Positions 37,530 through 59,172 of a stretch of DNA of 64,000 nucleotides are shown here, in pieces. The notes beneath the pieces were generated by a model. The model was not told the DNA's origin. It saw nothing but the letters and a program-made list of their open reading frames with translations, and did not search any database. The position numbers and the translations under genes were made by a program. This DNA is from an uncultured Oscillospiraceae bacterium (lineage in GTDB: Bacteria; Bacillota; Clostridia; Oscillospirales; Oscillospiraceae), in contig CANRIU010000002.1 in assembly GCA_947630755.1 (NCBI GenBank), positions 46,899 through 110,898 on the forward strand, given 5' to 3'. Numbering within the stretch: the first letter of the stretch is position 1; each line of letters begins with the position of its first letter.

Positions 37530-37584
37530 TTTACCGCCCCCTCCTGCCAATATAGTCGGCGGGCAGGTCCCATAGAATAGGAAA

Positions 37585-37634: not shown

Positions 37635-38099
37635 TCAGATTTTTATCCCGTACCTTATCTCGTTTTCATAAAAGGCCGGGTCGTCCGGGTCTTTAAGCTC
37701 CACGGTGTCCTTCGGCTCAAGGACGAGCCCTCTTGCCCCGGCGGCGGAGGTAAATGCCGCGAAGCTCGCCGCGTTATTCTTCGCTATGGTGACCTCTACC
37801 CCGCGCCCGGAGGCGGCGGCGTCGTCAAGGACCCGGTCAATCAGCCTGCGGGAAAGCCCCCTGCCCCGGTACTCGGGGAGGATGCCTATCTGCCAGACAA
37901 ATATCGTCTCCGGTGTCTGGACAGTCATGATATACCCCGCGCATATGCCGTCGTCCTCAAGGATATAGCTCCCGGAGCCGAAATATTCCGCCGCCACCCA
38001 GTAGGTGTAGCTGGTGTGCAGGTCCAGCGGCGGGCAGGACCGGGCCATATGGCGCAGAAGCCCCGCGTCGGAGCCCGCTGCGTTTCTCAGTGTTATCAT
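37635..38099 (-). CDS. GNAT acetyltransferase, EctA-like
   Basis: CPPLDLHTSYTYWVAAEYFGSGSYILEDDGICAGYIMTVQTPETIFVWQIGILPEYRGRGLSRRLID resembles diaminobutyrate acetyltransferase motifs. Confidence 0.75.
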   Translation of the reverse strand: MITLRNAAGSDAGLLRHMARSCPPLDLHTSYTYWVAAEYFGSGSYILEDDGICAGYIMTVQTPETIFVWQIGILPEYRGRGLSRRLIDRVLDDAAASGRGVEVTIAKNNAASFAAFTSAAGARGLVLEPKDTVELKDPDDPAFYENEIRYGIKI

Positions 38100-38103
38100 T
38101 GCT

Positions 38104-40011
38104 TTACCTCAAAGTCTTTCTCACAACGGCTACGGAGAAGTAGCCCACAAGGAATGAGCCGATGGCGTTTTCAAGCACCGACAGCACCGTCACCGACCAG
38201 TGTATCGGCTCAAACTGCGACACGAATGGCACCACATTGCTCAGGCTGAATATGAACGACGGCAGTATGTTTGCCGCCGCGCCCCCGGCCCTGAGGGCGC
38301 TCAGCACCGTTTCTCCCGTGCTGAAGGCCCCGGCGCCCAGCGACATGGCGACGAGCCAGTAGCCCAGGGTAAAGAACAGCACCTCCAGCGCCAGGGAGAC
38401 CACCACCCTCACCGGGGATATGCCGTATCGTCCCACGACCTCAAGAAGGCGGTACATATATTTTGTCCAGGGGTACTCCCTTGGCAGCGCCTTACCCCCT
38501 GCGGGGTGCTGTACGGAGTCGATATACGGCTTATAGTGCATATAGAGGATGAACGCCTCGTCCTCCTCGTCGTACTTTCCGGCGGCGTTGAAGTTCTCCT
38601 TGAGCATCACGAAGTCCTTCGCCTTGGAGTAATTGAGCTCATTCACGGCGTTGGGGCTGTCCGGCTCGTCGGGAGTCGAGTTGTTGTACACCGCCCGGAG
38701 CAGCGGGTCGATTATGTGCTTCCTCCCGCCGGAGGGCGTGACCGCCGTAAAGGCGCCCCAGTTTGACGCCCCCACCACCTTGCCGTAGTTGCTGGTCCGC
38801 AAGAACGACAGTGCGGAGACGTTTCCGATGTGCAGGGTCCTGTCTATCTCGCAGTTTTTGAATTTGAGGAAATTCCCCGGGCACTCGTCCTTCTCCGGCG
38901 CGTCCTCGTATTTTCTCGGCGCCAGAAGCACCCGCGTGAGGGGGATGTTCGGGACGTTCTCAAAGATTATCATGGCGCCGTCTATCTCGGCGTCGGACAT
39001 ATCAATCGACGACTCCTCCGATATGTCCACGTTCACGAACCTCAAAAGCCGCGTGTATCCGTCCTTTTTCGGCGTCTCCGGGCGCTTTATGTACCACACA
39101 AAGTCCCCCAGCACCATCTGGAAAAGGTTCACCGCCGTGTGTCCGAAATCCACGTTTATAAACTCCAGGCTCTCCCCGACTCTGGCGTCCTCAAAGGAGA
39201 TCTCCATGTCCCTTGCCTCTCCCGTGAAGCGCACGTCCCTGAACCGCGCCCCGGCAAAAAACCGCACGTTCCTGAAGTCCGCCTTCGCCGTCTCGTACCC
39301 GTCGTCGAGCACCCCGTCGTCGGAGTCGAAGTCTATCGTCAGATTCCCCACGTCCACGGGCCCGCAGAACGCCGCCTCGCTGAAGCACATGCCCTTTGAA
39401 AACACCGGGGCGAAGGGCACATCCCCGTCCCACCTCAGGCACGCGCCCCGGGTGAACACGACGCCGGAGGCGGTGAATTTCCCGAACCGCGCCTTTGAGC
39501 GCTCCATGGGCGAAAGGTCCGGAAAGCGCCTCAGTAAAAGCCTCGGGATGAGGTTTATGTCAAAGTAGTCCGTCACGACCTCCCGCTCCGCCGGGGCGGA
39601 GATGTCAAGAGTTATCTCCAGCGCCTCCCGGTCAAAGCTCACCGCGCCGGGGCGCTCAATAAGCTCCTCAAACGCCGCCGCGCCGTCCTCAAGGCCCTCC
39701 GGCGGGCAGGGCTCGTACAGATAGCGGTTGTATCTGTATTCCGGGTTTGCCTCCTTGAGACGCCTGTCCAGCTCCCGGCGCTGGCTCGGGACGGTGTAGA
39801 TGCCCCCCGTGACCACGTCCGCCTTCAGATATTTGCCCGTGCCGTTTAACAGGTCCACCACGCCCCGCTCGGTGACCTCGGCGTCCCCGCCGTATTTTTT
39901 GATATTCTCCCGGGTGAGGTTCGTGAGCTGGTCAAGGTATACCTTTCCCGGGACGGTGCGGATGTACTCCATCGTCTCCGTCCACCAGCGTTCATAGCAT
40001 TGCCTGTCCAC
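38104..40011 (-). CDS. beta-helix/pentapeptide-like protein with C-terminal channel-like TM region
   Basis: 635 aa; repeated F.N..F/F.D..F strands (ADFRNVRFFAGARFRDVRFTGEA); C-terminal TM segments ...ENAIGSFLVGYFSVAVVRKTLR as in 2-TM ion channels, without a TVGYG filter. Confidence 0.55.
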   Translation of the reverse strand: MDRQCYERWWTETMEYIRTVPGKVYLDQLTNLTRENIKKYGGDAEVTERGVVDLLNGTGKYLKADVVTGGIYTVPSQRRELDRRLKEANPEYRYNRYLYEPCPPEGLEDGAAAFEELIERPGAVSFDREALEITLDISAPAEREVVTDYFDINLIPRLLLRRFPDLSPMERSKARFGKFTASGVVFTRGACLRWDGDVPFAPVFSKGMCFSEAAFCGPVDVGNLTIDFDSDDGVLDDGYETAKADFRNVRFFAGARFRDVRFTGEARDMEISFEDARVGESLEFINVDFGHTAVNLFQMVLGDFVWYIKRPETPKKDGYTRLLRFVNVDISEESSIDMSDAEIDGAMIIFENVPNIPLTRVLLAPRKYEDAPEKDECPGNFLKFKNCEIDRTLHIGNVSALSFLRTSNYGKVVGASNWGAFTAVTPSGGRKHIIDPLLRAVYNNSTPDEPDSPNAVNELNYSKAKDFVMLKENFNAAGKYDEEDEAFILYMHYKPYIDSVQHPAGGKALPREYPWTKYMYRLLEVVGRYGISPVRVVVSLALEVLFFTLGYWLVAMSLGAGAFSTGETVLSALRAGGAAANILPSFIFSLSNVVPFVSQFEPIHWSVTVLSVLENAIGSFLVGYFSVAVVRKTLR

Positions 40012-40023
40012 TGTGCGCCTCCG

Positions 40024-42174
40024 TCAATGGCTGCTGAATACGATAAGCTTGTCCTGCTCCTCGAGCTCCACATCTATAAGCGACTGGTCGCCCTCGAACA
40101 GCACCGTTTTGCCTCCGGCCTTGACGTAGCCAAGGACCACGGTTGGGTTGCGCACCTCCGGAGGGATGGACTCGTCCATCGACGCTTCGTACACCGCGCG
40201 GATAAGGCTCTCCGCCGTGCACCTGGGCGGCAGCTCCTCGAAGAAGAGCTTCACGCTCTTGATGTATATCTCCTTGCTGTTGTACCCCTCCGACACATCG
40301 GTGTCGTAGGTGAGTATGTCGGAGTAGAAGTCGAAAAGCGCCTCCTTCTCCCCTATCTGAGTTATCATTTTGCTTATGTACCTGTTGCTTATGACCACGT
40401 TGTTGACGCTGTACGTCGTCACGATGTCGTGGTGCTTGGGGTCGATTATCTCCACCACAATGTCCATGCTGTCCCTGTCAAAGCCCGGCTCCGTGCTCAC
40501 CTTGCGGCTGATGATGTCCTGGACATACACAAGGTTCGCCAGCGCCCCGGCGTCGATGTCCTCGTTGAGGGCCGCGTCGTCGGAGAGGATGAGTATGCTG
40601 GTCTCGGAGCCGTGCTCGGAGACTATCCGCTCTATGGTGGAGCATATCAGGTCCTTGTCGTAGATGCTGGCGGACACCGTCTCCGCCACAAAGGGGTAGT
40701 CCCTGTAGTAGTCCATCTTCTCCAGATTCTTCTTGTCGTCGATGACTACAATGCGCAGTATCTCGCTGTCCTCCCGGCTCCACTCGCTGACGAAGGCCGA
40801 AAAGCCCTGCATGATGTCACGGCATTTGCTGTTGTGGCCCAGTATGATGACGCACTTGCTCTCTATCCAGTAGTCACGGTTGAGTCTGGCCTTGAAGGAC
40901 GGCGGGTTAACGGGCCCTGCCGTGTGCACGTCCCTCTCGCTGGCGGAGGAGAAATAGTGGTAGGCAAGGCCGTCGTCGCCCATCATGTAAGTGAGGGGTA
41001 TCGCCCGGCGGTGCTCCCGGAGGTACTCGGGGATGAAATCCTTCCCCTCCATTATCTCAAAGGGCTCGGTGAATATGGCGGAGCCCTTGTTGGAGAAGAG
41101 CTCCTTGTAAACAAGGTTCAGCTCCGGCATGAGGGAGAACTGGGAGAGGAGCTGCCCAAGTATCTGGTTTACACGCACGGGGATGATGTTGCACTTCTCC
41201 CGGACCTGCTTGCAGGCGATGATTTTCTTAACAAGGTCGTCAGTCCAGTCGTCGGTTATCTCCACGATTATCTTCTGGTTGTCGCTGGAATCCTCCGCGG
41301 CGGTGATGTCCGCCACCTGCATCAGCGTCTTGACGGTCTGGGAGTTGCCCCGCTCGCTCTCCGCAGAGCGCTCCATGGTCTCGAACCTGCACACCGAGGC
41401 GTTTATGTCGTTTCCAAGGATTATGACCGTCTTTGCCTGCTCAAGGCAAATGTCGCGGAGCTGCTTTGAGGAGAAGACGTCGCCCTCACGGACAATGACC
41501 GTCACGTTGTCATGCATCTTATCCCGCAGCACGGTGAAAAGCCGCCTGAATACCCCCATCCCCCTGCATGAGCGGCGCAGCTGCTGGTTTTCCCGGGAGA
41601 TGGTGTCGGATATGCGCTCCTTTATCTCCTTTTCTATCTCCGCCTTCCTGGAGCTCACAAGGACCACCACCTTCTGCGGTCCACGGCAGTAAAGAAGGTC
41701 GTTTATTATCTCCGACGCACGGGTGTTCCAGTTTAATATCACCAGGTGCCCCGAGATGTGGAGCTTCCGGGAGCCTGTGTTGGCGTCCTCGATGAAGTTG
41801 GAGATGTAGTTGGTCAAATATCCTATCACGGCGCCCGTGAAGGAGATCATCCCCACGAGGATTATCCCAAGGCATGTGACCACCACGCCGACCCCGGCCC
41901 TTCCGATGTCGGAGACGACGAATTGTATGCACCCCGCGTCAAGTATCATGGTGACGGTGCAGAAGGCCGCCTCCAGAAATCCCATCTGCTCCGTGCCCGA
42001 AAGGGAGAGCTTGCTTATTACTACCGCGGCGAGGAAGAAAAATACCACGTTGAACAGCAGAATAACCGCAAGGACCATCCTGCCGGGGTTCTTTGCCGTC
42101 TCAATGCTTAACCACTGTCTCAGTTTCTTTTTCATCTTTCTACCTCGCTTATTTGTCTTTTTTTCTGCCGCCAT
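40024..42174 (-). CDS. CASTOR/POLLUX-type ion channel-like protein with RCK/TrkA-N domains
   Basis: TM region then GAVIGYLTNYISNFIEDANTGSRKLHISGHLVILNWNTRASEIINDLLYCRGPQKVVVLVSS. Confidence 0.78.
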   Translation of the reverse strand: MAAEKKTNKRGRKMKKKLRQWLSIETAKNPGRMVLAVILLFNVVFFFLAAVVISKLSLSGTEQMGFLEAAFCTVTMILDAGCIQFVVSDIGRAGVGVVVTCLGIILVGMISFTGAVIGYLTNYISNFIEDANTGSRKLHISGHLVILNWNTRASEIINDLLYCRGPQKVVVLVSSRKAEIEKEIKERISDTISRENQQLRRSCRGMGVFRRLFTVLRDKMHDNVTVIVREGDVFSSKQLRDICLEQAKTVIILGNDINASVCRFETMERSAESERGNSQTVKTLMQVADITAAEDSSDNQKIIVEITDDWTDDLVKKIIACKQVREKCNIIPVRVNQILGQLLSQFSLMPELNLVYKELFSNKGSAIFTEPFEIMEGKDFIPEYLREHRRAIPLTYMMGDDGLAYHYFSSASERDVHTAGPVNPPSFKARLNRDYWIESKCVIILGHNSKCRDIMQGFSAFVSEWSREDSEILRIVVIDDKKNLEKMDYYRDYPFVAETVSASIYDKDLICSTIERIVSEHGSETSILILSDDAALNEDIDAGALANLVYVQDIISRKVSTEPGFDRDSMDIVVEIIDPKHHDIVTTYSVNNVVISNRYISKMITQIGEKEALFDFYSDILTYDTDVSEGYNSKEIYIKSVKLFFEELPPRCTAESLIRAVYEASMDESIPPEVRNPTVVLGYVKAGGKTVLFEGDQSLIDVELEEQDKLIVFSSH

Positions 42175-44380
42175 TGAGACGGCGGGGTTTGAGCTTGTCT
42201 CTGCCGAAGAATATCCGCCCCAGCGCGTACACAGCCGTTAAGAGCACAAGGACGAAAAGGCACCGCTGCATTATGTGTATCGCCGCCGGAGGGAAGGTGT
42301 CCGACCAGGTGCCGATGTAGTCGTGCCCGTCTATCCACGCCGAGAACACCGCAAGGAAGGATATGACCGCCAGGGATACGTCCATGCGCTTGGAGTTTCG
42401 CCTGTCCACGATGTCGCTTTTCGTGTCATAGACCGTCTGAAGGTGCTCCCTGCTGCGGTTCAGCGCCTCAAGGAGCTCATCCGTCTTAAAGGCCGTCCTC
42501 AAAAGCGTCAGGGACTTTTGTGATGTGGGGTAATTTACCCTGATGTTCCAGAAATCTATCGTCTTTGAGTAGTCGTCATATATCCGGTCCACGCGCTCGA
42601 GAAACTCGATGGGGTCCCGGGCGCTGTATTCGGAGACGAGCTTCACCATCTGGGAGTTGGCTATCCGTATCGCCGCCTCCTCAAAAAGTATGAGCTCCAT
42701 GTAAAAGAGGGTTATCGCCTCGTCCTCCAGCCTCTGATAGACCGTGCCGATAAGCTCCGGGGAGAACTGGAGCACCACGTTGGTGTAGGCGCAGACATAC
42801 GCCCTGTCGTACTGCCCGAAGCCCTGCTCGGAGCTTGCAAGGGCCACTATCTCCTCATCGATTATCCTCCCGAAGGACTCCCCGTCGGGGTAGATCGTCT
42901 CCGACGCGATGAGGGACGCGAGCTGGTCTGTGGAGAGGCAGCTCTTTTCCCGGGGTATGACAATGAATGACTTTGCCGCGCCCTGCTTTACGATGCCGAA
43001 GCGCTCCTTCAAAAAGTCGAAAAGATTGTACTCCCTCCCGCCGCTGACGGCTGTCAGCTGGTTGCGGGCCACGTTGTCGAGAAAGTGGCTCAGCAGAAAC
43101 GGGCATGACATGGATACAAAGGTCAGCACCCCGCAGCGGCTGCGCTTGTCCACGGAGATATACACATCCACCAGCGCCTCCGGGCCGATGCTGTCCGCCT
43201 CATGCTCGTAGGTGTCCACCGTGGGCTCCTCGAATATTTTCACCGCGAGCTTTCCGAGATAGCTTCGGCTTATGCGCTCCTTGAGCGCCGCAAGGTCGTC
43301 CACGTCGTCCGCCCGGGAGGGTATCCCCGCCTCGTAGTAGGTCCTGTAATCCAGGAGCTTTATCAGCTTTTCCGCCGTGGGGTCGGAGTTTCCCGTGCCG
43401 AGCCTCTCCGGGTCTGAATACTCCACCGGGATGGACACGAAGAGGTCCGGGATAAGCGACCACTCGGCGCTTCGCTTTTTCATCATCTCCCTCAGCGTGT
43501 CGTTGAGGAGCGGCTCGCAGGTGTAGCTCTCAAGCTGTATGTATAAAAGCCTCCCGCCCCGGATCTCCTCCCTGAAGCGGCAGATGTTTATCCGCCGCTG
43601 GTACTCCAGCAGCGCGCCATAGTCTATCGACACAAGGTCCGCCCTTGTCACCGCCCGGTCCTTCTGCCTGAAAAACGTCACGCCGTACTCCTCTCCCTGC
43701 TCCACGCCGATGAGGAATACTCCGCTTCGCACAAGCTCATGCTCAATGCCCCAGCGCCGAAGAAGCCCGCTCTCCGGCAAAAGGAGCATATTGCCCCTGT
43801 TTTGCAGTTCCCCGCCGCCGGGAGGGCCGGGGTCCCGCTTTATGTAGAAATAGCCCTCGTCGAGGGCGGTAATTTCAAAGTCCCTTGCCTTATATATCTC
43901 AAGCGACCCCTCGTTTGAGACGTCGCTTACGATAAACCTGTCGGGGTATGCGGCGATAATGTGGTCCACCAGCGCCGAGGCCATGCCCATGCCCCGGTTT
44001 TCCGGCCTCACGGCGATGGACAAAATGTACATGACCTCGCCATTTAGGCTCTCGATTTTCCCGTGGAGGCCCTTGGCGTAGGGAAGCTCCCCCATGTCCT
44101 CCACGCCGAAGATGGCGCGGAAGGCGTCGGTGTGCTCCCGCCGCAGGCGCTTGTAGTCAAAGCAGAGGATGAACCCCTCCAGCCTCTCGCCGTCAACCAC
44201 GCCAAAGCAGAAGCCGTTCTCAAGGCAGTGGTTCAGCGCCGGAAGAAAAAGCTCCCGCATTTTCTCCCGTGTTGCCTCGCCCTCCATTACCTGGGCGTAG
44301 TAGTGGTCGTCCTTAAAGCAGTTGAAAAAAAGGTCGAATACCGACTCCAAATCGCCGATGCCAAGCTCTGAAAGCTCCAT
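42149..44380 (-). CDS. GNAT acetyltransferase domain fused to a large uncharacterised region with C-terminal TM segments
   Basis: MYILSIAVRPENRGMGMASALVDHIIAAYPDRFIVSDVSNEGSLEIYKARDF; C-terminal hydrophobic segments; start ATG 44380 (RBS GGGAG). Confidence 0.65.
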   Translation of the reverse strand: MELSELGIGDLESVFDLFFNCFKDDHYYAQVMEGEATREKMRELFLPALNHCLENGFCFGVVDGERLEGFILCFDYKRLRREHTDAFRAIFGVEDMGELPYAKGLHGKIESLNGEVMYILSIAVRPENRGMGMASALVDHIIAAYPDRFIVSDVSNEGSLEIYKARDFEITALDEGYFYIKRDPGPPGGGELQNRGNMLLLPESGLLRRWGIEHELVRSGVFLIGVEQGEEYGVTFFRQKDRAVTRADLVSIDYGALLEYQRRINICRFREEIRGGRLLYIQLESYTCEPLLNDTLREMMKKRSAEWSLIPDLFVSIPVEYSDPERLGTGNSDPTAEKLIKLLDYRTYYEAGIPSRADDVDDLAALKERISRSYLGKLAVKIFEEPTVDTYEHEADSIGPEALVDVYISVDKRSRCGVLTFVSMSCPFLLSHFLDNVARNQLTAVSGGREYNLFDFLKERFGIVKQGAAKSFIVIPREKSCLSTDQLASLIASETIYPDGESFGRIIDEEIVALASSEQGFGQYDRAYVCAYTNVVLQFSPELIGTVYQRLEDEAITLFYMELILFEEAAIRIANSQMVKLVSEYSARDPIEFLERVDRIYDDYSKTIDFWNIRVNYPTSQKSLTLLRTAFKTDELLEALNRSREHLQTVYDTKSDIVDRRNSKRMDVSLAVISFLAVFSAWIDGHDYIGTWSDTFPPAAIHIMQRCLFVLVLLTAVYALGRIFFGRDKLKPRRLNGGRKKDK

Positions 44381-44474
44381 TTTATCTCCCTCTTTTAACG
44401 CCCCGCCCCGCGAAAACCGCGGCGCATGGCGGCGCTTCTCCAATAAACTGCCTGCTTTTTATTGGAAAGCAGTA

Positions 44475-46232
44475 TCAAATGTCGTCCTTCGCCTTCTCCT
44501 CCTCGCTGAGCTCATCGTATGGCACAAGGTCGTGGTGGAGCTTCGCAAGGTCGTTGCGGCTGGAGCGGTCCCGGGAGCCGGACCAGCGGTAGCCCTCCGT
44601 CCGCATAAAGGCGTTCCAGCGGCGGTGCTCCACGATCCGAAGCGCCTCCCGCTCCTCGTGTGTGCGCTCCCCCGCGGGCTTTTCCGCCCCGGGTATGCCC
44701 AGCTCCCGGCGGAGCCTGACGTGGAGCGCGGAGGCAACGGACGAGCGGAAATTATACTCAAATTCCCAGAAATCCCGCTCCGTGCCCCACTTTTTATGCC
44801 GGGCCAGCGCCTCCTGCTCCAGCGCGGAGCTCATAACCGTCTCCTCGCGGCAGGCCGAGTCCATGTCCCCGGTGAAAACAATGTTGTAGGGCTGATTTTT
44901 GAAGTTCACGGCGTTTTTAAGGCTTCTCGCCATCCGGGAGCTTCGCACTACGGCCCGCACCACCGGGTCCATGCCCATCCCCGCCGAGAGCTCCCGCGCC
45001 CGCACGGCGGCGGAAAGCGTCTCGCTGTCGTTGTTAAGGTCCGCAAAGACCCATGTCACATATTTAAGCGCCGTAAACTCCCCGGCAAAGCGCCCGGTAT
45101 CGGCGCCCACCCCGGAATGTACGGTTATGAAGTACTCGGCCTCCCCGGATATGCGCACGCCGTTCATCTCCATGAGCTCCGGGCAAAGGGCGGAAAGTCT
45201 GTCCTGCGCGTCCTCACTCCGGTCAAATACATCTATGTGCAGCTCATAGCCCGTCATCTGTCCGTACCAGCAAAGGGCCTTGAAGGCCTCGGTGCCGCAG
45301 CCCTCCAGCCCCAATATAACGGCGCCGATGTACCTCCCGCCGCCGTCCTCCCGGGCGGAGTCAAATATCTCCCGCCCGCTCTCATAGAGCATGGAGTTCA
45401 CTATCGACCGCTTCATGTCCACCCGGCGGACGACCATGCCGCCCTCCCGTGCCGTCTGAAAGAGGAGCTCCGACTGGGTGCTGTCGGAAAAAACGAAAAG
45501 CCGCGTCCCCGGCTTGGAGCCCCAGCGCTCAAAAACCGCCAGTCCCTGGGCGGTATTCTGATCCGTGTCCTCGCCCATGACGATAAACGTGACCCGGTTT
45601 GTGAGCATATGCAGCCCCAGGCGCAGCGCCGCCGCCTCGCGCTGGAAAATAACCGCGCCGAGGCCGCGCACCTGCTGCTCAAGCTCCGTCTCCCGCTCCT
45701 GCTCCTCCACCCCGGCAAACACGATGAGCGCCCGGCGGTGTCCCCGCCTGATGCTCCCCGCCAGGGCGGCGGAGGACTCATTGAGCGCGGAGAATATATA
45801 CGTCTCCGAGAAAAACCGGAGCGCCATCCTCCCCGCGCCGGATATGTTTTTGATAAATGTAAGTACGAAGCTGAAGGTCAGCACCGGGCCCAGCACATAA
45901 AGCGCCACGGCGGCGAGCCTGTAAGCCTCCGCCGCCTCCCCGGCGTTGGAGGCGAAGCTCACCAGCGGGTCCACCTCGCCGTCCATGATAAACACCCGCA
46001 TGGTGTTGTGCAACGACACGAGTATTCCCTTCAGCACGGCGTCGGGCTGGCCTGAGTACGCCTCGTAGTACATCGGGAAGTGCAGTCCCAGCAGCGCCAA
46101 AAACGTGCCCAGAAGCACCGCGCTTCTCAGCGTGAAGCGCCCTCCCCACTGCCCCGCGCCCCTGCACACCGCCCAGAGGGCGACGCAGGCCGCGAAGGCC
46201 GTCAGGGATATGATAAGGAAGCTCGATTCCAT
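44475..46232 (-). CDS. membrane protein with TrkA-like core and C-terminal RyR-type domain
   Basis: ERTHEEREALRIVEHRRWNAFMRTEGYRWSGSRDRSSRNDLAKLHHDLVPYDELSEEEKAKDD matches the RyR-domain pattern; N-terminal TMs. Confidence 0.65.
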   Translation of the reverse strand: MESSFLIISLTAFAACVALWAVCRGAGQWGGRFTLRSAVLLGTFLALLGLHFPMYYEAYSGQPDAVLKGILVSLHNTMRVFIMDGEVDPLVSFASNAGEAAEAYRLAAVALYVLGPVLTFSFVLTFIKNISGAGRMALRFFSETYIFSALNESSAALAGSIRRGHRRALIVFAGVEEQERETELEQQVRGLGAVIFQREAAALRLGLHMLTNRVTFIVMGEDTDQNTAQGLAVFERWGSKPGTRLFVFSDSTQSELLFQTAREGGMVVRRVDMKRSIVNSMLYESGREIFDSAREDGGGRYIGAVILGLEGCGTEAFKALCWYGQMTGYELHIDVFDRSEDAQDRLSALCPELMEMNGVRISGEAEYFITVHSGVGADTGRFAGEFTALKYVTWVFADLNNDSETLSAAVRARELSAGMGMDPVVRAVVRSSRMARSLKNAVNFKNQPYNIVFTGDMDSACREETVMSSALEQEALARHKKWGTERDFWEFEYNFRSSVASALHVRLRRELGIPGAEKPAGERTHEEREALRIVEHRRWNAFMRTEGYRWSGSRDRSSRNDLAKLHHDLVPYDELSEEEKAKDDI

Positions 46233-46283
46233 AGCCTTGTTCCTCCAAAATCGGCGCCTGTCTGCTCCGGAGCGCGCCGCCCG

Positions 46284-46495: not shown

Positions 46496-46519
46496 TTCTC
46501 CCTGCCTGCCTCCGCGGCA

Positions 46520-49500: not shown

Positions 49501-50728
49501 CCTCGCATATGACGCTCAGGCCCACCTGCCCGGTGTTCACCATTACCGACGGCTCCAGCAGAAGTATGAAGCCCACCCGGTTGAAAAACTCCCTGTTCGC
49601 CGCCAGCACGTCCACATCGTAGAGCTCCCGGAAGCTGAGCACCCCGACCTCGCAGTCGGGCTTTGCGTTGGTAAGCCCCCTCACCCGCCAGAGCGAGCGG
49701 ACGTGGGAGTAGTCCTTCAGCGTCTCCTCCAGCCACGCCGCGGCGTCCTCCCCGGTGGAGCCCCGCCCCGCGATAACAAGGCAGCGCTTCCCATGAAGGA
49801 GAGTATTTACCAGCGGCAGTGTGAGATACGCCGTCAGGTCCCGGTAGAAGGGGTTGAAGAACACAACGCTCCTGCCCTCCAGAAGGCTCACTGTGGCCTG
49901 AATGCTGTCGTTGTCAAAGGCCCTGCCGTCGTCGTAGGTGTTGAAGTATTCCGCGACGCTCTTTTTTATCCCGTCGTCGCTGCCGGAGAGCTCCTGGAGC
50001 GTCTGGGTGCTGCCGGACCTCGCGGCAAACTCGCTCCCGGTGTGGGAGGCCAGAACGTTGGGCTCAAAGAGCTTTTCATAGATCTCGCGTATCTTGTAGT
50101 AATTCTTTATCCGCCTGGAGTCTGACTCCACGCCGCCCACGTCGTGGGAGAACTCCTCCCGTGTCTTGCCGTTTAAAAACCCGTAGATCTCAACGGCGGG
50201 GATGAGCACCGCGGCTGGGAAAACGTACGCCCACATGGCGCTGTCCTCCCCCGCGCACCATACGACCGCCAGCACCGCGAAGGTTCCCGCGGCGGCGGCG
50301 AGCATGACGCCAAGGGCCACGGACCTCAGGTCTGCGGTCTTTTTCCTCAAAAACCACTGCCTGTAGCGCTCGTCAAGCTCATAGTATCTCCCGCTCCACC
50401 GCTCTATCCGCTCATCGTCGGACCATATGCCAAGGACGATCGGCAGCGCCACGGTCTTCAGGGCGATGAACCCGCCCAGAAGCAGCAGATTGAGTATCGG
50501 CACCTCCCCGTCCGCCAAAATCGGCAGGAGAGTGCATATCACCGACACCAGCTTCCTCTTCACCGTGAGGAACACCGTCCCCGCCACGGCGTAGACCAGG
50601 GCAAGTATGGGCATGAAGGGCAGCCGCGCACGGTTGAGGCGCTTTGCGCTGATAAGATAATCGATAAACGTAAGCGCCGCGATGGCCCCGAGAACCACCA
50701 GAGCGCGTATGGCGTCACCGTGCGTCAT
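46520..50728 (-). CDS. giant membrane protein with degenerate helicase-like middle region and C-terminal DA1-like Zn-finger/HExxH peptidase
   Basis: 1402 aa; N-terminal TMs; CDFCGKALSGVSYDVLSDGRVRCNDCSSSAIVTVEEFTEVFYKALELMEMFYEV...TMVHELTHIWQYLN...YEGMAMW. Confidence 0.7.
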   Translation of the reverse strand: MTHGDAIRALVVLGAIAALTFIDYLISAKRLNRARLPFMPILALVYAVAGTVFLTVKRKLVSVICTLLPILADGEVPILNLLLLGGFIALKTVALPIVLGIWSDDERIERWSGRYYELDERYRQWFLRKKTADLRSVALGVMLAAAAGTFAVLAVVWCAGEDSAMWAYVFPAAVLIPAVEIYGFLNGKTREEFSHDVGGVESDSRRIKNYYKIREIYEKLFEPNVLASHTGSEFAARSGSTQTLQELSGSDDGIKKSVAEYFNTYDDGRAFDNDSIQATVSLLEGRSVVFFNPFYRDLTAYLTLPLVNTLLHGKRCLVIAGRGSTGEDAAAWLEETLKDYSHVRSLWRVRGLTNAKPDCEVGVLSFRELYDVDVLAANREFFNRVGFILLLEPSVMVNTGQVGLSVICEESSRFGDKPVYCICDRYTDGLVDTMSHLLRTEITDVVAAPTPRSTYSGMAFNADGDFIRQDLFDKQVRFLGNGVELAAVAVKNQVPLVTWYGERKAPLRDIKWIAGQYYSSICRYMGIPSHQKSLYERIRFVSTLWSTVPEKEQFIIVEDEFCNIFSTMRAFLSRGSESSFVNVLSENYLLRDYMRCNQQMFLSNPNAIPSIVPDYAKTERNTVLKLILKMAVAPIAEDEIMSELLLVGCRVDDVLDTFSGLMLKYTGVDGTILEIRSVTGGDEKMSVRMTNYYGISRGAFDKNFARTLKTAYYIVEDEKRETEYIDAKMFGHVAQTVLPGQFVTYFGKYYQVKMVSPVNGIILRRASDLYNGRRYYRQLRTYHFGDEDWSEVKYSRTVMDVEVSVVCADFTVTTTGYLDMGDMHDLRSAKLVGYEGDPNSGDYDREYRSKNVLRIKLPETDERIRFTMCLLLSELFHSVFPDAWQYLAVLAKRPDDIEGVLNYAVYAADGNIGDEYIYIAEDSSIDLGLLDAVNRNLPRLLEIIADFLDWHFEKMCEPEMEDPVPEKVKMPEEAVKRRNVFLRMADRIRSIFSRKKHEDEPHIGTPGEAELSGGSGAPGNEMPGEAAPESGAEDRPAAGEGGYGPGAADTGEDKPAKELPDGSGGEAEPVHIDGTGVFEDETMPGDGLWLEDAFKAAGIAPAEQTRYQRECYLKYGFDEIDGHLRIEDVRRYLHLRGYSDNALTRARRGGRQPETDLEAVNHCDFCGKALSGVSYDVLSDGRVRCNDCSSSAIVTVEEFTEVFYKALELMEMFYEVTFHVPITVRMADARTVAKGSGSVFKPSTEVAARTLGYAQRRFGKYSVIMENGSPRLATVDTMVHELTHIWQYLNWDDGLVRRVYGMGRRECTATARDIVYEGMAMWAAIQYLYQIGETYYASQQEEETAQRSDVYGVGFRLYREQYPLVKDMSIIRSSPYRDFPTIDPEKVKEAVRGQCQNKHCRC

Positions 50729-52655
50729 CGTACAGCTCCTCCCTCTCTATTTTTAGCTTCCTCACAAAGATGAAGGGGCTCTCCACGCTGTCCCCCGTGG
50801 AGTTCACGTCCGCGGGCCAGCTCCCCGAGTCGTTGAAGGTGTATAGCGGATTTAAATGCGGCGGCACGGCGGTGTCGAAGGACAGGTCCTCCTGGAGCTC
50901 CGCGGACTCCAGATGCACCGGAAGGTGGAAGGCCACCGTCCACTCCTTGAGCTTCGCCAAAAAGGCGTTCAGCGCCGCGATGTGGTTGCGCTTGAAATAC
51001 TGCGCCTCGTCCTTCATGAAGTTTTTACGGCTCAGCTCGTCAAGGTATGACTGCCCGTGGGCATAGGACGCAAGGTCGCTCATGTATTCCGAGTACCTCG
51101 AGGAGTTCTCCGCCACCCGGAGCACAAGCGCCCCCACGGCGCCGTTATAATCACTGAGTTCCGCGCGAAGGGCGCCGCGCTTTAAAAGCAGCACAAGGAG
51201 TATCGCCCCGGACAGCACCGCCCCGAGGCCCGCCGCCAGAGCGACTCCGCCCCAGCCGCCGGGCTCTCCCGTCAGCAGCAGCACCGCGCCGGGGATTCCC
51301 GTGAGGATCGACGCCCCCGCGCAAATAAGGCACATCCTCACTGCCTGACGCCGTGTCAGTCGGCGCACGAGCTTCTCCCTGACGCTCTCCTCCAGCTCGT
51401 CCATCCTCCCGGTGTCCTTGCCGCTGTCCTTCGGAAGCTGCCTGCGGCGCTCGAATATGCTCTCGCGCACCTCCCCGAGGGAGGTGTTGAAATCCTCCAG
51501 CTGGTAGGCGTCCAGGGGCATTATCTCGTCGGGAGTGTAGGTGCAGTAGTCCCGCATCCTGTCGGCTGTCCTGTCAAGGGCCCGCTCCGCCGTGATGGCG
51601 GAGTCCCTCACCGCCCTGCGGGCGCGCTCCCGGGCGGCTTCCCAGTTCTCCATGTCCGACGTCGACGTGGAGGAGGTGAGCTTAAACTCCTCCGGCGTCA
51701 CCTGAAAATTCTGCTTTTTCGGAAGGTCCACCACCACGGGAGCCTTTAGCTTGTAGTTTGGGACCACGGTCTTTTCGTTTATCTTCTGCTCCAGCTCCCG
51801 CTCGATGCTCTTGGTTATGAAGTCTCTGGCGCTGATGACCTTTCCGGCGGTGGCCTCCATGTTCTCGGTCATCTTCGTCCTGTCTATCTCCACGTCGAGC
51901 CTGTGGAGCTTATACGCCTGAAGGGTGCTGGCGTCGATGTCGTTTGTCGCCAGTAGCAGCACGCACAGCCACACCTTGAACATATCCGCGACGTGCTGCA
52001 CCGGGCCCTGGCGCGACAGCTCATAGAAGCAGAACCTGCATGAGCTGGGGTAGCCGTTGCGCTTCCAAAACCCGGAGCTGTCTATCTCCTTGTGCTGGGA
52101 CCAGACGCTGGAGACGTTCTCCACCCGGGTGTCCTGCCGCTGGGTGAGGGAGATAAGTATTATCTCCGTTGGCGGCGTGGAGCTCAGGTGGTATTTCTCG
52201 CTCAGGCGCCTGTACTCCTCCTGGTCCTCCTCCCTCACCGAGGGAACGTAGACCATTTTCGGGAGCTTATTCTCCTCGCGGACAAGCTCCGGCTTGAACA
52301 CCACGTTTGGCGAGGGCATACCGCCCAACATATGGGTGAGGCGTATGAGGGGGATGTCGCTCTCCCTCATATGCGTGTCATCGCCGATGTTCTCCACAAA
52401 ATCGTAGGGGTTGTCGGGGAATGTCTCAAACCCCGCCATGGGAGCCTCGTCCTCCACGCGGACAATGACGGCGCGCCACTCCTCCTTGTCGTTGACCTGG
52501 CTGTAAAGCTCAGGCACGGCGGTCTCTATGCTCATGCCCGATTCAAACCACTGGCACACGCCGATACGCCCCGAGTTGAGGGCGTCCATGAACAGCGGGT
52601 GGAACTGGTTGAAGCTGTCCATCGTCTTTTGATTCTGGATCAATACGGAGTACAA
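50715..52655 (-). CDS. uncharacterised cargo protein with central coiled coil and two TM segments
   Basis: 646 aa; TM region ICAGASILTGIPGAVLLL...VALAAGLGAVLSGAILLVLLL; overlaps the 46520-50728 gene by 14 bp. Confidence 0.6.
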   Translation of the reverse strand: MYSVLIQNQKTMDSFNQFHPLFMDALNSGRIGVCQWFESGMSIETAVPELYSQVNDKEEWRAVIVRVEDEAPMAGFETFPDNPYDFVENIGDDTHMRESDIPLIRLTHMLGGMPSPNVVFKPELVREENKLPKMVYVPSVREEDQEEYRRLSEKYHLSSTPPTEIILISLTQRQDTRVENVSSVWSQHKEIDSSGFWKRNGYPSSCRFCFYELSRQGPVQHVADMFKVWLCVLLLATNDIDASTLQAYKLHRLDVEIDRTKMTENMEATAGKVISARDFITKSIERELEQKINEKTVVPNYKLKAPVVVDLPKKQNFQVTPEEFKLTSSTSTSDMENWEAARERARRAVRDSAITAERALDRTADRMRDYCTYTPDEIMPLDAYQLEDFNTSLGEVRESIFERRRQLPKDSGKDTGRMDELEESVREKLVRRLTRRQAVRMCLICAGASILTGIPGAVLLLTGEPGGWGGVALAAGLGAVLSGAILLVLLLKRGALRAELSDYNGAVGALVLRVAENSSRYSEYMSDLASYAHGQSYLDELSRKNFMKDEAQYFKRNHIAALNAFLAKLKEWTVAFHLPVHLESAELQEDLSFDTAVPPHLNPLYTFNDSGSWPADVNSTGDSVESPFIFVRKLKIEREELYDDAR

Positions 52656-52689
52656 ATTATCACCCCCTGGATGTCCTCCGTCAGGGAAA

Positions 52690-55600
52690 TCACTTGCTCA
52701 GCTCCCTGGCCCTGGATTGGACATCCTTTGCCTCTTTGATAAGGCCCAGGTCCTCATAGGCCTTGGCAATGATACTGCATGTGCGGCTGAAGAGGTAATC
52801 CTTGTAAATGTTCCTGTTGTGCTCGGCCTCTATCTCCATGGAGCCCATGAACAGCTTGAACTGCTCTGTGAGTATGCTTCCCATGGCGTCGGGGAGGTCC
52901 TTCCCGGAGCAGAAGCGCAGCAGGTATCTCTTTATCTCGCCTATCTCCGCCTTGAGTATCTGGAGGATGCTCTCCTCGTTATAGGCGTCGGACTTCACGG
53001 ACTTGCTCATAAGATACGGGATGTCGAAGATGCTCCTCACCCTGTTGTCCTCGCCCAGGGGGTACTCCTTGACCCTGAACTCCCGGAGGTTGGTGAGCAG
53101 CAGGCCGTCCTCCAGCTTCACCGCCCTGTCGATGTCCGCTCCCGTGAGCAGCTCCACCCTCGAGAGCACCTTGTTCACAAGCTCCGGATAAATGGCGAAG
53201 GCGTCCAGCACCTCATAGAGCCTGTCGCAGGGCGTGCCGTTGCTGACGACGAGCCTCTCGTCGTCAAGGCCCAGCTCGTCGATGTTGAGAAGGTACGCCT
53301 TCTCGTCGCTGCGCACGTCGTAGAGGTCCACATATCTGCCCAGCAGCCCCCAGAAGAACGCGGCGTAGATTCGCTGCTCCTGCGCGGCCTGGCTGCCCTC
53401 GTCAAGGTCGGGCATCTTCGTGACGATGTGCCACCATCTGTCGATGTGGGGCGTTATGGCCTTGCTCATGTGCGCCACGGGGTGGACGCTGGAGATGAGC
53501 TCGTAGTACGCCTTATAATACTCTCCGCCGTCCCTGGAGGATGTGATGGTGCGCTCCGGCGGCGCGAACTTGCTAAGCTCGTTGGCGCGCAGCCCGTAGA
53601 AGGACTGGTAGAACAGTATCATGTTCTTGCTGATGTCGTCGTCGGCCACGCCTCCGTTGTTGCGAAGCTCCCTGTCCACAAGCTTGCTGCGGGGCGACTC
53701 GTCCTCGGTGATGAGCTGCGGGTTGAAGGCGCAGGCGTAGATGGGCTGCTTCTCCATGCCCAGCGGCTTTTCGATGAAGGGGCAGGACAGCGCCCGGGAG
53801 TTGCGTATGGCCTTCTCCACATAGGCGTTGATGGTGCTGCTGTCGTACTCGAATTTCTTGCTCCTCGAGGACGCCCTCCGGGCCTCCTCCTCAAGCTCTA
53901 TCTCCGCCTCCGTCTCAAGGGCGGTGATGATGTCCATGTCCACCTCATTTGAGTATGTGCGCATCACTGCGCCCTTGAAGTAGCCAAGTATCCCGTCCTC
54001 AAACAGCTCGTTGAAATACCCGCTGTTCTGGGGCTTTGTGAGCAGCAGCGAGTACTTGCGCACCTTGCTGTAAATGTCCTCCGCCAGCTTGTCGTCGATT
54101 GTTATGGAGCTGCCCATGTAGATGAGCTTGCCCGCCATATACTCAAGGCACAGTCTGGAGGCGCACACATACCTTGCGGTGGTGCCCTTGGTGTTGCCGT
54201 ATTTCTTGGCGATCTCGGCGATGCGCTTCTCGATGTCGGAAACGCGGCTGTCGAAGGTGGCGAAGAAATTCATGAACGCCTCGCACAGCCCCGTGACGTA
54301 GGCGATGCCCTCCTCGTACACCAGCGCCAGAACGGCGTTGACCCTGTACTCGTTGCACTTCGTCAGATAGTTGGTGTAGGCGCTCTTCAGGTCCTGCTGC
54401 TCCCCGGAGAGCTTCCCGGTGAGCCTGTTTATGAGGGCGAGCTTGCGCTCGGTGAGGTTCTCCACAGTCTCGACCTCGTCGGTCTCGGTGTCGTCGAAAT
54501 GCGCCTTCGCGAAGTTATCGAAGAACTTCACGGCGTCGGAGTTTTTCTTGTCCACCATCTGCTTCTCCTCCTTCAGGGCGTCGAGAGCCTTGTAAAGGAA
54601 GTACCTGACGGCGTTGGGGTGCATGAACTTGCCCTCGCTGTCGCGAAGGTGCGTCTCTATCCTGTACGCCAGCTTGTCGGAGGTGGCGGTTTCCGTGGGT
54701 GCGCGGAACATGGTGTAGGCTATGGTCCGGGCGGTGTCCTCGGTGCGCTTGTTTATCATGGCGCGGTATTTTTCCATCTCCCGGTAGGTCCCCTGGAACG
54801 CCTCCCAGGAGTCCCTGCCGCCCTCGATGCCGGCGATGTTTATCATCACCTGCTGCCTCTGGGCGTCAAGGTCGCTCTGCCCGGAGGACTCGTCGTCGGT
54901 GATTTTCTTCTTCAGCGCGTCGACATAGTCGTCCCACTTGTCTGAGACCTTTGAGAGCCCGTCCCCGTCGTAGGTGGCGCAGGCGTTGACTATGGCTCTG
55001 GCGAAGGGGTCCTTGTTCTTCGCCATGGACTCCACGGTGTTTATGTAGCTCCTTGCCGGGTCGGTCTCGGCAACGGACAGGCCCTGGGCCCTCATGGCGG
55101 CGTCCCGGCGCTTTATGTCCTTATAGACGTTGTCAAAAACCAGCCACTGCTTGGAGACGCACTCCTTGGCCCAGTTTAACGCGATATACTCCTTCACGTC
55201 CTCCACGGGGTAGATGAGCATGGATGAGCCGGCCCCGGCGTAGCGGTTGCGCCCGCGCTCCGCGGCGAGGCGCCGTATGGTGTTGTCCTCGGAGGAGTTG
55301 CTGCGCTTGTTCATTGGCCCGATGGACTGGGCGTAGATGCAGTTTGCCGCGTGGTCCAGATACTGGTTGAAGGAGTTGAGCTTGCTGCCTTCGGCGTTCT
55401 GAGCGTCAAAGAGGAAGCAGAAGTCATAGGGCCGCACGTCGTACTCGTCGTAGCCCTCGGAGCTGACACGGGGGAACTCTATCTTCACGGAGTCCTTGTA
55501 CTGCCGCGGCAGGGTGGCGTCGCCCTTCATGAGGAAGGCGTCCAGCTCCCGCAGCGTCGCGTAGGCGTTGGAGCGCAGGCTGTTGCGCTCCGCCTGACCG

Positions 55601-56175
55601 GGTATGACCTGGTCGAATACCTCGGGCAGGATGAAAAAGCCTCTCGTAATATTCGCGCTCTGGCGGAAGTGGGTAGCAAGGTAATTTTTAATATACAGCG
55701 CCACGGGCAGAATGAGCCCGGAGCCCGTGCCTCCGGCAAGGGAGCTGACGATAATGACCCTCAGCGCCTGCTCGGCCTGGCCCTCCTCCAGCTTGTAGAG
55801 GTCCTGTATCGCCTCGTGGAGCTGCTCCATCTTCCCCGCCCTTATGGCCGTGTCAAAGGCAAGGCGTGAGATGGCCCTGACCTGCCCCGCGCCCTCCGTC
55901 AGCGTCTTGCTGTTGAGGATGGCGTTCACCGGGAACCAGGAGTCCCTCGCGTGGGTGTCGATGTTCAGGTACTCGCCGACAGAGAGCTTTGTGGAGGTCT
56001 GGATGATTTTGATAAAGGGGTTTTCACGCTGGATCTCCCGCAGCTCGTTGATGTCCGTGTCAAACACGGCGAAGCCCAGGTGGTCCCTCTGCTCCTCGCT
56101 GACAAGCTTAGAGACCTTCGTTACGATTTTTGAGCCTGTTCCGCCCAGACCGACAAGTAATGTTGGAGCTATCAT
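52690..56175 (-). CDS. tubulin/FtsZ-like GTPase superfamily protein (Tubulin_2 type)
   Basis: 1161 aa; MIAPTLLVGLGGTGSKIVTKV and IVSSLAGGTGSGLILPVALYIKN (GGTGSG tubulin signature). Confidence 0.82.
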   Translation of the reverse strand: MIAPTLLVGLGGTGSKIVTKVSKLVSEEQRDHLGFAVFDTDINELREIQRENPFIKIIQTSTKLSVGEYLNIDTHARDSWFPVNAILNSKTLTEGAGQVRAISRLAFDTAIRAGKMEQLHEAIQDLYKLEEGQAEQALRVIIVSSLAGGTGSGLILPVALYIKNYLATHFRQSANITRGFFILPEVFDQVIPGQAERNSLRSNAYATLRELDAFLMKGDATLPRQYKDSVKIEFPRVSSEGYDEYDVRPYDFCFLFDAQNAEGSKLNSFNQYLDHAANCIYAQSIGPMNKRSNSSEDNTIRRLAAERGRNRYAGAGSSMLIYPVEDVKEYIALNWAKECVSKQWLVFDNVYKDIKRRDAAMRAQGLSVAETDPARSYINTVESMAKNKDPFARAIVNACATYDGDGLSKVSDKWDDYVDALKKKITDDESSGQSDLDAQRQQVMINIAGIEGGRDSWEAFQGTYREMEKYRAMINKRTEDTARTIAYTMFRAPTETATSDKLAYRIETHLRDSEGKFMHPNAVRYFLYKALDALKEEKQMVDKKNSDAVKFFDNFAKAHFDDTETDEVETVENLTERKLALINRLTGKLSGEQQDLKSAYTNYLTKCNEYRVNAVLALVYEEGIAYVTGLCEAFMNFFATFDSRVSDIEKRIAEIAKKYGNTKGTTARYVCASRLCLEYMAGKLIYMGSSITIDDKLAEDIYSKVRKYSLLLTKPQNSGYFNELFEDGILGYFKGAVMRTYSNEVDMDIITALETEAEIELEEEARRASSRSKKFEYDSSTINAYVEKAIRNSRALSCPFIEKPLGMEKQPIYACAFNPQLITEDESPRSKLVDRELRNNGGVADDDISKNMILFYQSFYGLRANELSKFAPPERTITSSRDGGEYYKAYYELISSVHPVAHMSKAITPHIDRWWHIVTKMPDLDEGSQAAQEQRIYAAFFWGLLGRYVDLYDVRSDEKAYLLNIDELGLDDERLVVSNGTPCDRLYEVLDAFAIYPELVNKVLSRVELLTGADIDRAVKLEDGLLLTNLREFRVKEYPLGEDNRVRSIFDIPYLMSKSVKSDAYNEESILQILKAEIGEIKRYLLRFCSGKDLPDAMGSILTEQFKLFMGSMEIEAEHNRNIYKDYLFSRTCSIIAKAYEDLGLIKEAKDVQSRARELSK

Positions 56176-56197
56176 TTTTCTGTCCTCCCTTTATTTG

Positions 56198-58672
56198 TTA
56201 GGAATTTGGTATGCAGGTATAGGTGAATTCCTTTGTGTCCACTGTGATCAATGTGCCGGCGGAGATGGGATAGGGCTTTGTGCGCCCCTCCTCAAGGGGT
56301 GAGCCGTTAAACTGTACGTTGTCCTTCCCGGCGTAGGACTTGACGTTCATTATGAGCATCCCCGAGCCGCCCGCGGCCTTGACCTGGAGCTGCGCCACGC
56401 CCGGCGCGCCCTGGGGCACGAACTTTATGGTGCCCCGCTCCGCCTTGTAGGGGATGATTGTGCTGGAGAGCTTCTTGACGTACTTGCCGTTTGCCGTCGC
56501 CGCGTGGACGCCCCGCTTGTTGGGCGAGCAGTCTATCGTCGGGCGGCGCTTCAGAGATTTCGGCAGGTATTTCTTGAAAGGCGGTATGTACCCCAGTATC
56601 AGAAGCACGATCGCCGCGATTATCAAAATCCTTATGACGAGCTGGAGGTTTCTCTCAAGCCATGTGCGGTTGTCGGTGACGCGCACAGACCCCTCGGCGC
56701 TACCGTCATAGCCCAGCAGCCCCTCCCCTCCCGGGTAGGAGACTGTGAAATCGTAGCCGTCATATATATCGTAGCTCATGAGCCCCGTGCGCAGGTTGGG
56801 ATAGAGCCTGTATTCTCCGATCTCCGAGCCCTTCTTCACTGTGAAGTCGCCGTACCTGGAGCTTCCGTCCCCATCGACGATCTCCACGTCCAGCAGCGGC
56901 ATCCTCTCCCAGTAGTCCGCGTCCGGCGCGTCGCCCTCAAAGCCCACCTTCACCGTTATGGCCTCGGAGTTGTCAAGCCCCTCTGTGGTGACGCTGTAAT
57001 CTGGGCTGTCGCCGACGGTGATGGATGTAACTCTCGTGCGCGAGTCGTTGACCTCGGCGTGGCCCTGCACCTCGCCGGCCCAGCTCGCCTCGCCCACCCT
57101 GGTGTCGAGCTTCACGGTGTAGTCAAAGCCCGTGTACTTCTCGTCGCTCAGTCCCCCGTCGGGTTCGGTGGGATAGATGAGGTAAACTCCCGGCTCGGGG
57201 CTCTTCTCCACCCGGGGCTGCCCGAACATATACGCGTTCTCCCCGGTTATGGCGACCTCCGGCAGCTCCAGCTGCGCCCACTGCTCCTCGGTGATGCCGC
57301 CGCTCACGTCCATTGTGAGCTCAATGGGCTCGCCGAAGCCCGCGCCGCCGTTGGAGACGGTGTAGGCCTTCTCCCCTACGCCGCCGCTGACATTAAAGCC
57401 CACGGCCTTGTCCTCGAAGATGCTGTAGGACAGGTGCGTTGAGACTGTGTGGTACTCAAGGTACCTGGCCTCGGCGTCTATCTCCAGCTCGCCCTCGGTG
57501 ATATGTATCCTGTCACCGGAGTGCACGTCCGTCAGCTCCTCGCCGTTGTTGGAGATAACGGCGGAGTATGTGACCTCCCCCAGAAGCTCGGACTCGTTCA
57601 CCCTCCTGTCGGTGCCCGCCTTCACGAGGCCGAAGGTTATGGTGTAGTCCCCGGTCTTGAGGTTCGTCATGCTCGTGACCTCCGCCCCGGTCATATCCTG
57701 CAAATAGGCGGCGATCTGGACGTTCGGCTTGTAGTAGACCTCTATCGTGTCCGCCCCGGACACATCCAGCGTGTATTTTCCGGAGTCAAAGTCGTCCTTG
57801 AAGGTCGCGATGCTCCCCTTAAGGTCCCGGGCCACGGTAAAGTCCGTCCTGTTTGTCGCCGCCTGCTCGGAATACTGGACGGTGACGGGCTGGGTGGAGC
57901 ACAGGTACTCCTTCCCGTTCTCCCCGGTTATCTTATTTACCGTCACGTTCGCGCCCTGGGCAAACACCACAAGCTCCCCCATGGGCACGTCAAACTCCAC
58001 TGTCCTGGCGGAGACGTTGACCTCCAGGCGGTGGCTGTTGAAGATCTGAGTGCAGATCTCGGTTATCTCGTGGAGGATCTCCCTGTTCGTCTCCGCCTTT
58101 TTGAAGAATATCCCGGCGGAGGTGTTCTCGGTTATGGCGTCGGCGTCCGGCCCCATTCCCAGGAACATCACGTTCACGTCCGCCGCCTTCTGGGCGAAGA
58201 AGCCGTCGATGTCGTTCACGTTCTGGAATTCTCCGTCGGTGAGCACCACCAGCCACTTCTCATCCGCCTTCAGCGCCTCAAGGTCCGAGTAGGCCTTCCT
58301 CACGGCGCCGAAGGGCGTGTTCCCCGCCCGGGACACGGTGTCGTGTATCTTTGAGACGTTCGTCTGCTGGCTGTCGGAACCCGAGAGGACCAGCTTCGGC
58401 CCCGCGGATGCGTTGGAGTCAAAGTCGCTCATGTAGTAGATGTTCATGGTGTCGTGCTCCCCAAGCAGCGCCGCGAACACCTCCATGGCGTACTTCGCCT
58501 GACACCATGTGTCCACGAGCTGCCCGCCGGAGGAGATCATGCTGCCGGAGTCGTCATAGACGAGATTTATCACCCTGTCAGGCTCGCTGGAGACAGCGGC
58601 GTTCACAGGCACGCAGCCTATCACCACCGCCGCGGCGAGGGCAAGGATCAGCAGGACTCTTTTTCTTCTCAT
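56198..58672 (-). CDS. secreted/membrane von Willebrand factor A domain protein
   Basis: Signal peptide MRRKRVLLILALAAAVVIGCVPVNAA; MIDAS VINLVYDDSGSM; WLVVLTDGEFQNV; TM near C-terminus. ATG 58687 is an alternative start. Confidence 0.8.
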   Translation of the reverse strand: MRRKRVLLILALAAAVVIGCVPVNAAVSSEPDRVINLVYDDSGSMISSGGQLVDTWCQAKYAMEVFAALLGEHDTMNIYYMSDFDSNASAGPKLVLSGSDSQQTNVSKIHDTVSRAGNTPFGAVRKAYSDLEALKADEKWLVVLTDGEFQNVNDIDGFFAQKAADVNVMFLGMGPDADAITENTSAGIFFKKAETNREILHEITEICTQIFNSHRLEVNVSARTVEFDVPMGELVVFAQGANVTVNKITGENGKEYLCSTQPVTVQYSEQAATNRTDFTVARDLKGSIATFKDDFDSGKYTLDVSGADTIEVYYKPNVQIAAYLQDMTGAEVTSMTNLKTGDYTITFGLVKAGTDRRVNESELLGEVTYSAVISNNGEELTDVHSGDRIHITEGELEIDAEARYLEYHTVSTHLSYSIFEDKAVGFNVSGGVGEKAYTVSNGGAGFGEPIELTMDVSGGITEEQWAQLELPEVAITGENAYMFGQPRVEKSPEPGVYLIYPTEPDGGLSDEKYTGFDYTVKLDTRVGEASWAGEVQGHAEVNDSRTRVTSITVGDSPDYSVTTEGLDNSEAITVKVGFEGDAPDADYWERMPLLDVEIVDGDGSSRYGDFTVKKGSEIGEYRLYPNLRTGLMSYDIYDGYDFTVSYPGGEGLLGYDGSAEGSVRVTDNRTWLERNLQLVIRILIIAAIVLLILGYIPPFKKYLPKSLKRRPTIDCSPNKRGVHAATANGKYVKKLSSTIIPYKAERGTIKFVPQGAPGVAQLQVKAAGGSGMLIMNVKSYAGKDNVQFNGSPLEEGRTKPYPISAGTLITVDTKEFTYTCIPNS

Positions 58673-58704
58673 CTCTTTATCCCCCATTTCAAAATGAAAA
58701 CGGC

Positions 58705-59154: not shown

Positions 59155-59172
59155 GTATAGCATTTTCTATAC
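59155..59172. other. attachment site at the sigK N-half junction (palindrome around core)
   Basis: gtatag-catttt-ctatac, perfect 6-bp inverted repeat flanking the core. Confidence 0.75.

Follow-up and report, generated by a model that had tools for sequence, protein, structure and literature searches.

The window analysed here, a stretch of 64,000 nucleotides from an uncultured Oscillospiraceae bacterium (assembly GCA_947630755.1, contig CANRIU010000002.1, positions 46,899 to 110,898), takes in a contig end of a genome of 2.19 Mb in 98 contigs. Within it, sigK is split by an insert of approximately 23.3 kb, which consists of a serine recombinase gene beside the C-terminal half of sigK and of nine co-directional cargo genes. 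The features of the element are listed below in their order on the minus strand.

59161..59485, minus strand: N-terminal half of sigK, with sigma region 2 (Sigma70_r2, E 7.5e-16), ending at the AAATG core and in frame with the C-terminal half
56198..58687, minus strand: vWA protein, 829 aa, with a TM segment near each end and a MIDAS motif (DxSxS/T/D; VWA_2, E 1e-3)
52690..56175, minus strand: Tubulin_2/FtsZl1 GTPase-like protein, 1161 aa (PF13809, E 2.4e-59)
50715..52655, minus strand: core gene 3, 646 aa, two adjacent TM segments (position conserved in 71/82 loci; weak PspM-like match, E 0.004)
46520..50728, minus strand: multi-TM protein, 1402 aa, with a DUF1998/MrfA-like pseudo-helicase region, a Zn ribbon and a predicted HExxH peptidase (model, Foldseek and motifs)
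44475..46232, minus strand: protein with TM region, RCK-type gating ring and RyR domain, 585 aa (RyR profile, E 1.7e-16 to solved RyR domains)
42149..44443, minus strand: GNAT-domain protein, 764 aa, with a C-terminal TM segment (Acetyltransf_1, E 1.3e-6; no full-length homologue found)
40024..42174, minus strand: CASTOR/POLLUX-type channel, 716 aa (gating-ring profile, E 5e-6 to LjCASTOR and 1e-5 to MtDMI1)
38104..40011, minus strand: weak pentapeptide-repeat-like protein, 635 aa, with C-terminal TM segments (Pentapeptide_3, E 0.011)
37635..38099, minus strand: EctA-like GNAT acetyltransferase, 154 aa (TIGR02406, 85 bits)
35847..37550, minus strand: large serine recombinase of the element (Resolvase, E 6.5e-32; Recombinase, E 1.5e-16; Zn ribbon, E 3.6e-13)
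35483..35846, minus strand: C-terminal half of sigK, with sigma region 4 (Sigma70_r4, E 2.7e-18), a copy of the core just upstream, and in frame with the N-terminal half

The anatomy of the element is secure. The sequence AAATG is common to both sigK junctions, and joining the two halves there in silico produces a single continuous SigK frame (...YASRCIENEILMYFRSQRK...). The window therefore holds a real skin-like sigK-intervening element, the cargo of which is unusual but not unique. The order and common direction of the cargo genes are those given in a first-pass annotation of this DNA, whose vWA, tubulin-like GTPase, RyR, CASTOR-type and GNAT-plus-TM assignments also agree with profiles and motifs; none of the nine frames is interrupted over the 21 kb and most of the products carry TM segments. 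Neighbouring genes are separated by -26 to +34 bp; only the interval from the peptidase gene to the RyR gene is longer, at 287 bp, and it offers no support for the small ORF proposed earlier, as it holds only a 51-aa frame. Two of the minor assignments hold in part. The C-terminal TM segments of the protein formerly described as a beta-helix are confirmed, whereas the beta-helix itself amounts at best to the weak pentapeptide-repeat match, and a single partial homologue of this protein was found among 391 genomes. Likewise, the 154-aa protein is indeed a GNAT and resembles EctA, but it is not named EctA here because its score lies below the cut-off of 120.6 for that family. Just upstream of the N-terminal half of sigK, an 85-bp tandem repeat is present in four copies (59568-59910), and downstream of sigK a serpin gene adjoins an ECF-type sigma factor gene (33373-35398); a similar ECF gene adjoins the C-terminal half of sigK in genome G032.

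In the genus to which the organism belongs, sigK is intact in about 31 of 34 genomes, which thus present the empty site. It is clearly split in the window's genome and in G032, broken by contig ends in G017 and ambiguous in G023. Nine relatives of the element recombinase were found in the order, most of them on the same contig as a sigK half. The cargo of the sigK-element loci of relatives (L131-L137) differs widely; going by gene names read from the sequence by eye, it includes genes of a phage-tail type, a relaxase resembling MobA, ABC-transporter genes and metabolic genes. Conversely, the other 81 loci that hold the operon, for most of which the flanks extend to at most 10 kb, yielded no recombinase homologue. 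We therefore reject the proposal that the sigK setting is a trait of the operon system, and regard the case of the window as one landing event at a site that serves different cargoes. By split-gene logic, the element would be excised in the mother cell, and the operon would consequently be lost from it. The varied cargo of these elements could also be taken to mean that the operon is decaying or miscellaneous, acquired by a selfish sigK element and of no present function, and for three of the cargo genes homologues are almost absent, both near other cores and among the 391 genomes. Yet nine frames remain intact, and catalytic and ligand positions are kept, so that we deem this explanation improbable.

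A phage origin of the cargo is likewise rejected. PHROGs searches detected no structural or lysis family, the only matches being that of the recombinase to an integrase and generic acetyltransferase matches. This bears out the earlier description of a sigK element with a non-phage membrane operon and speaks against the cargo being divergent phage structural proteins. No relative was found in 2.9 million viral contigs by a pattern-based scan, which distant ones could escape. The one record labelled as a phage, MT836542.1 (L249), is an UNVERIFIED scaffold bearing chromosome-type genes together with a vWA-tubulin pair, and its bacteriophage label is probably an error. Spread by plasmids was also dismissed, since only distant Tubulin_2 proteins were found.

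The comparative analysis is based on 82 loci, comprising 79 obtained with a profile of the tubulin-like protein, the window itself and two from other genomes. Most of the profile-derived loci come from MAGs of gut Clostridia; a small number are from isolates, and some lie in bins that bear the label Treponema, Myxococcales or Proteobacteria. The succession of vWA protein, tubulin-like protein, two-TM protein and large TM protein is complete in 71 of these loci, and most of the remaining 11 are cut by contig ends; the expectation that core genes recur together in other genomes is thereby borne out. The MIDAS of the vWA protein is complete, with its D, S, S, T and D residues invariant across 70 homologues, and the GGTGSG loop of the tubulin-like protein is invariant across 77. 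A PDB profile search with the tubulin-like protein returned nothing significant. Its closest relative is found in L090 (75% identity). The distribution of the operon is patchy: out of 99 genomes, any match was present in 8, a count that includes the window's own, and only one other was close. Judged by sequence, the cargo exemplifies an operon that is widespread in Clostridia and represents a variant of the vWA-FtsZl1 operons that is new in composition. To call the operon undescribed was only partly correct, for vWA-FtsZl1 operons (PMC2875224) and predicted tubulin/vWA conflict systems (PMC7159879) had been reported earlier. The label of eukaryote-like, in turn, is misleading because all the cargo families have prokaryotic members.

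The fourth core protein, of 1402 aa, had been read as a TM protein with a DA1-like peptidase. The TM segments stand, and the C-terminus carries a Zn ribbon and a HELTH...E (HExxH..E) motif; DA1 is matched in neither Pfam nor PDB profiles, and a central region resembling SF2 helicases had been missed. Residues 205-965 have no Pfam match, and PDB profile searches with the helicase and peptidase sequences gave nothing significant. However, an AlphaFold2 model of this region built from 26 relatives (pLDDT 87.7) matches MrfA, a DUF1998 SF2 helicase, over its whole 761 residues (Foldseek E 9.5e-23, TM 0.54). The Walker A (GKT) and DExH residues are replaced, with NPFYRD at the position of motif I and LEPS at that of motif II, as assigned by sequence order and not by residue-by-residue superposition. 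Since P293, F294 and E392-P393-S394 are invariant across 60 homologues, the site is conserved, but not as an ATPase. In L107, L113, L122, L125 and L130 the peptidase part is a separate ORF after the pseudo-helicase.

Beyond the core, the loci differ in an accessory slot that is occupied in the 82 loci by RyR (16), CASTOR (15), FtsK-like ATPase (18) or transglutaminase-like (7) genes. The RyR domain of the window forms the C-terminal part of its protein, the model of which shows TM helices and a CASTOR/TrkA-type RCK ring (Foldseek 1.7e-5 to the LjCASTOR gating ring and 1.3e-4 to TrkA). The CASTOR-like protein combines TM segments with an invariant ILDAGCI segment, and its homologues above 60% identity (62-71%) number four others in 394 genomes of the order, all of them beside the core. 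The window CASTOR shares about 70% identity with its counterparts in G243 and G446, yet the tubulins of these genomes are only about 28% identical to that of the window, which indicates that accessories move between cores. Congruently, L090 bears an FtsK-like gene in the slot where the window has CASTOR, despite its 75% tubulin identity. Both channels may be regarded as putative ion-conducting gated effectors. The recurrent F5 accessory, which occurs in 18 of the 82 loci and matches FtsK_SpoIIIE (E 8.4e-17), invites a reading as a secretion or DNA/protein translocation machine, in which FtsK/HerA-like ATPases would pump a substrate through the TM complex and the vWA protein and peptidase would process it. 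We attach little credence to this reading, given that the ATPase is missing from most loci, among them the window, that neither a secretion substrate nor a pore family could be recognised and that the channel accessories are ion-channel-like.

None of the nine proteins is recognised by PADLOC as part of a known defence system, and defence families are no more numerous in the flanks than in control regions (26 against 68, the latter count being inflated by a CRISPR locus), so that a general defence island is also rejected. TIR genes follow a different pattern. Counting TIR_2 genome-wide in 50 operon-holding genomes gave 162 matches, and the expectation was derived from these same genomes' own TIR numbers. 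In the operon flanks, 15 TIR proteins were counted, spread over 11 of the 50 loci, against 1.34 proteins and 1.31 loci expected (Poisson P 1.4e-7), although the effective number of loci is smaller than 11 because some share neighbours and are not fully independent. Half of the flanking TIR genes are encoded on the opposite strand, which weakens the case for a defence role. In L062, L124 and L098 a TIR gene is directly 3' of the RyR gene. TIR proteins were seen beside RyR/CASTOR-bearing operons in L098 (2473-5082), where the protein is a TIR-LRR, and in G446 (L033). Among RyR channels elsewhere in the order, TIR genes adjoin 6 of 30 loci and the tubulin core adjoins 4 of 30. The RyR-RCK channels of L184, L186, L191, L194, L195 and L207 adjoin TIR genes without a recognised tubulin core, and it is possible that such loci constitute a minimal TIR-channel module. 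The window operon itself contains no TIR or other signal-producing gene, and its genome encodes two TIR genes outside the operon.

The RyR domain points in the same direction. Phage RyR-domain proteins bind or cleave 2'/3'cADPR by means of H75, W78, H100 and D117 (2026 preprint, PMC13232231). Residues H536, W539, H566 and D583 of the window RyR correspond to these RyDEP residues in type and in two spacings (3 and 17), matched by motif and spacing and not by superposition, and all four ligand-type residues are kept in 39 of 45 channels. The conflict or surveillance role put forward in the first-pass annotation hence gains independent support from TIR enrichment and from the conserved signal-binding residues. 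Given that the operon is common in gut bacteria and that TIR adjacency is far above chance, it may be an uncharacterised defence or membrane-surveillance machine, and we infer that surveillance or defence is its best-supported function. The alternative, in line with the proposal of 2010 for FtsZl1 systems by Makarova and Koonin (PMC2875224), is a housekeeping membrane-remodelling or envelope/ion-homeostasis machine, in which a tubulin-like polymer would shape or repair the membrane, with the channels and the peptidase serving to restore ion balance and to turn over proteins. The TM segments in most products, the weak similarity of core gene 3 to PspM (envelope stress) and the absence of defence-island enrichment in the flanks are in keeping with such a machine. 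Its patchy distribution, the swapping of accessories between loci, the TIR enrichment and the retention of the RyR residues argue against it, and we consider it possible but somewhat doubtful.

The interpretation we tentatively prefer, with a likelihood approaching even, is that of a skin-like sigK element whose cargo is a four-protein FtsZl1 membrane core with exchangeable effectors, operating as membrane-anchored, GTP-driven surveillance with gated channel effectors. The signal flow, the gating of the channels and the defence outcome would then be as follows. The TM-anchored vWA protein would sense a change in the envelope, and the tubulin-like protein would polymerise or switch with GTP at the membrane, together with the two-TM protein. 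The TM-anchored pseudo-helicase, though devoid of the usual ATPase residues, might retain nucleic-acid binding or serve as a scaffold, and would relay the state to its own Zn-peptidase. Finally, the RyR-RCK and CASTOR-like channels would open on a nucleotide or ion signal, altering cation flux and leading to growth stop or a halt of infection. The nucleotide might be provided in relatives by the neighbouring TIR protein, and in the window's genome it would need a TIR encoded elsewhere. The GNAT-TM, pentapeptide-like and EctA-like proteins find no explanation in this surveillance model, which counts against it. A stricter version strikes us as rather unlikely. In it, infection would be detected by the membrane-bound tubulin-like GTPase together with the pseudo-helicase/peptidase as receptor, and the RyR-RCK cation channel of this immune machine would be opened by a nucleotide of the cyclic-ADP-ribose type. 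The window would then hold, within an element under sporulation control, the prokaryotic equivalent of ryanodine receptors regulated by nucleotides. Animals use the RyR domain in calcium-release channels. If a TIR-made nucleotide gates the RyR channel, bacterial immune signalling would be joined to this domain.

The operon shares with the FtsZl1/vWA operons described in 2010 as membrane-remodelling systems a Tubulin_2 protein with a vWA neighbour of intact MIDAS, surrounding membrane proteins and occurrence in diverse bacteria (PMC2875224). That paper gives P-loop GTPase, protein kinase and OmpA genes as frequent, though not universal, partners, whereas the window operon has none of the three in a Pfam scan; conversely, the constant pseudo-helicase/peptidase and the RCK-type channels are not named in the main text of the paper. 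In the literature searched, no experimental function was found for FtsZl1 proteins, known since 2010. A concrete, testable hypothesis for them now arises from their constant pseudo-helicase/peptidase partner, from the channels among the accessories and from the linkage to TIR genes. Other tubulin/vWA systems, centred on the GAP1-N2 GTPase, were predicted in 2020 to be conflict systems (Kaur et al., PMC7159879). They also combine tubulin-domain and TM vWA proteins in Firmicutes, with variable components and a membrane location, but the window operon has no GAP1/TRAFAC GTPase (Pfam) and possesses one tubulin and one vWA protein instead of two each. The DUF1998 SF2 helicases represented by MrfA share their fold with the whole model; in contrast to MrfA, the core protein family lacks the ATPase motif residues, is membrane-anchored and is fused to a predicted Zn-peptidase. 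With Thoeris-type TIR/cyclic-ADP-ribose signalling and RyDEP (PMC13232231), the common ground is the same four RyR ligand residues and TIR genes near relatives, although the RyR domain is here C-terminal in a TM/RCK protein and the window operon is without a TIR gene. The CASTOR/POLLUX/DMI1 channels are related through gating-ring homology by profile, but the window's CASTOR-like protein is prokaryotic and encoded in an operon with Tubulin_2. Finally, skin elements and the non-phage gin element (PMC5595907) likewise feature a split sporulation gene, their own recombinase and exact rejoining, and gin is also devoid of phage genes. The window differs from them in that its cargo is a membrane/channel operon and its excision is predicted from the sequence, and its sigK context shows that developmentally split genes can host varied non-phage cargo.
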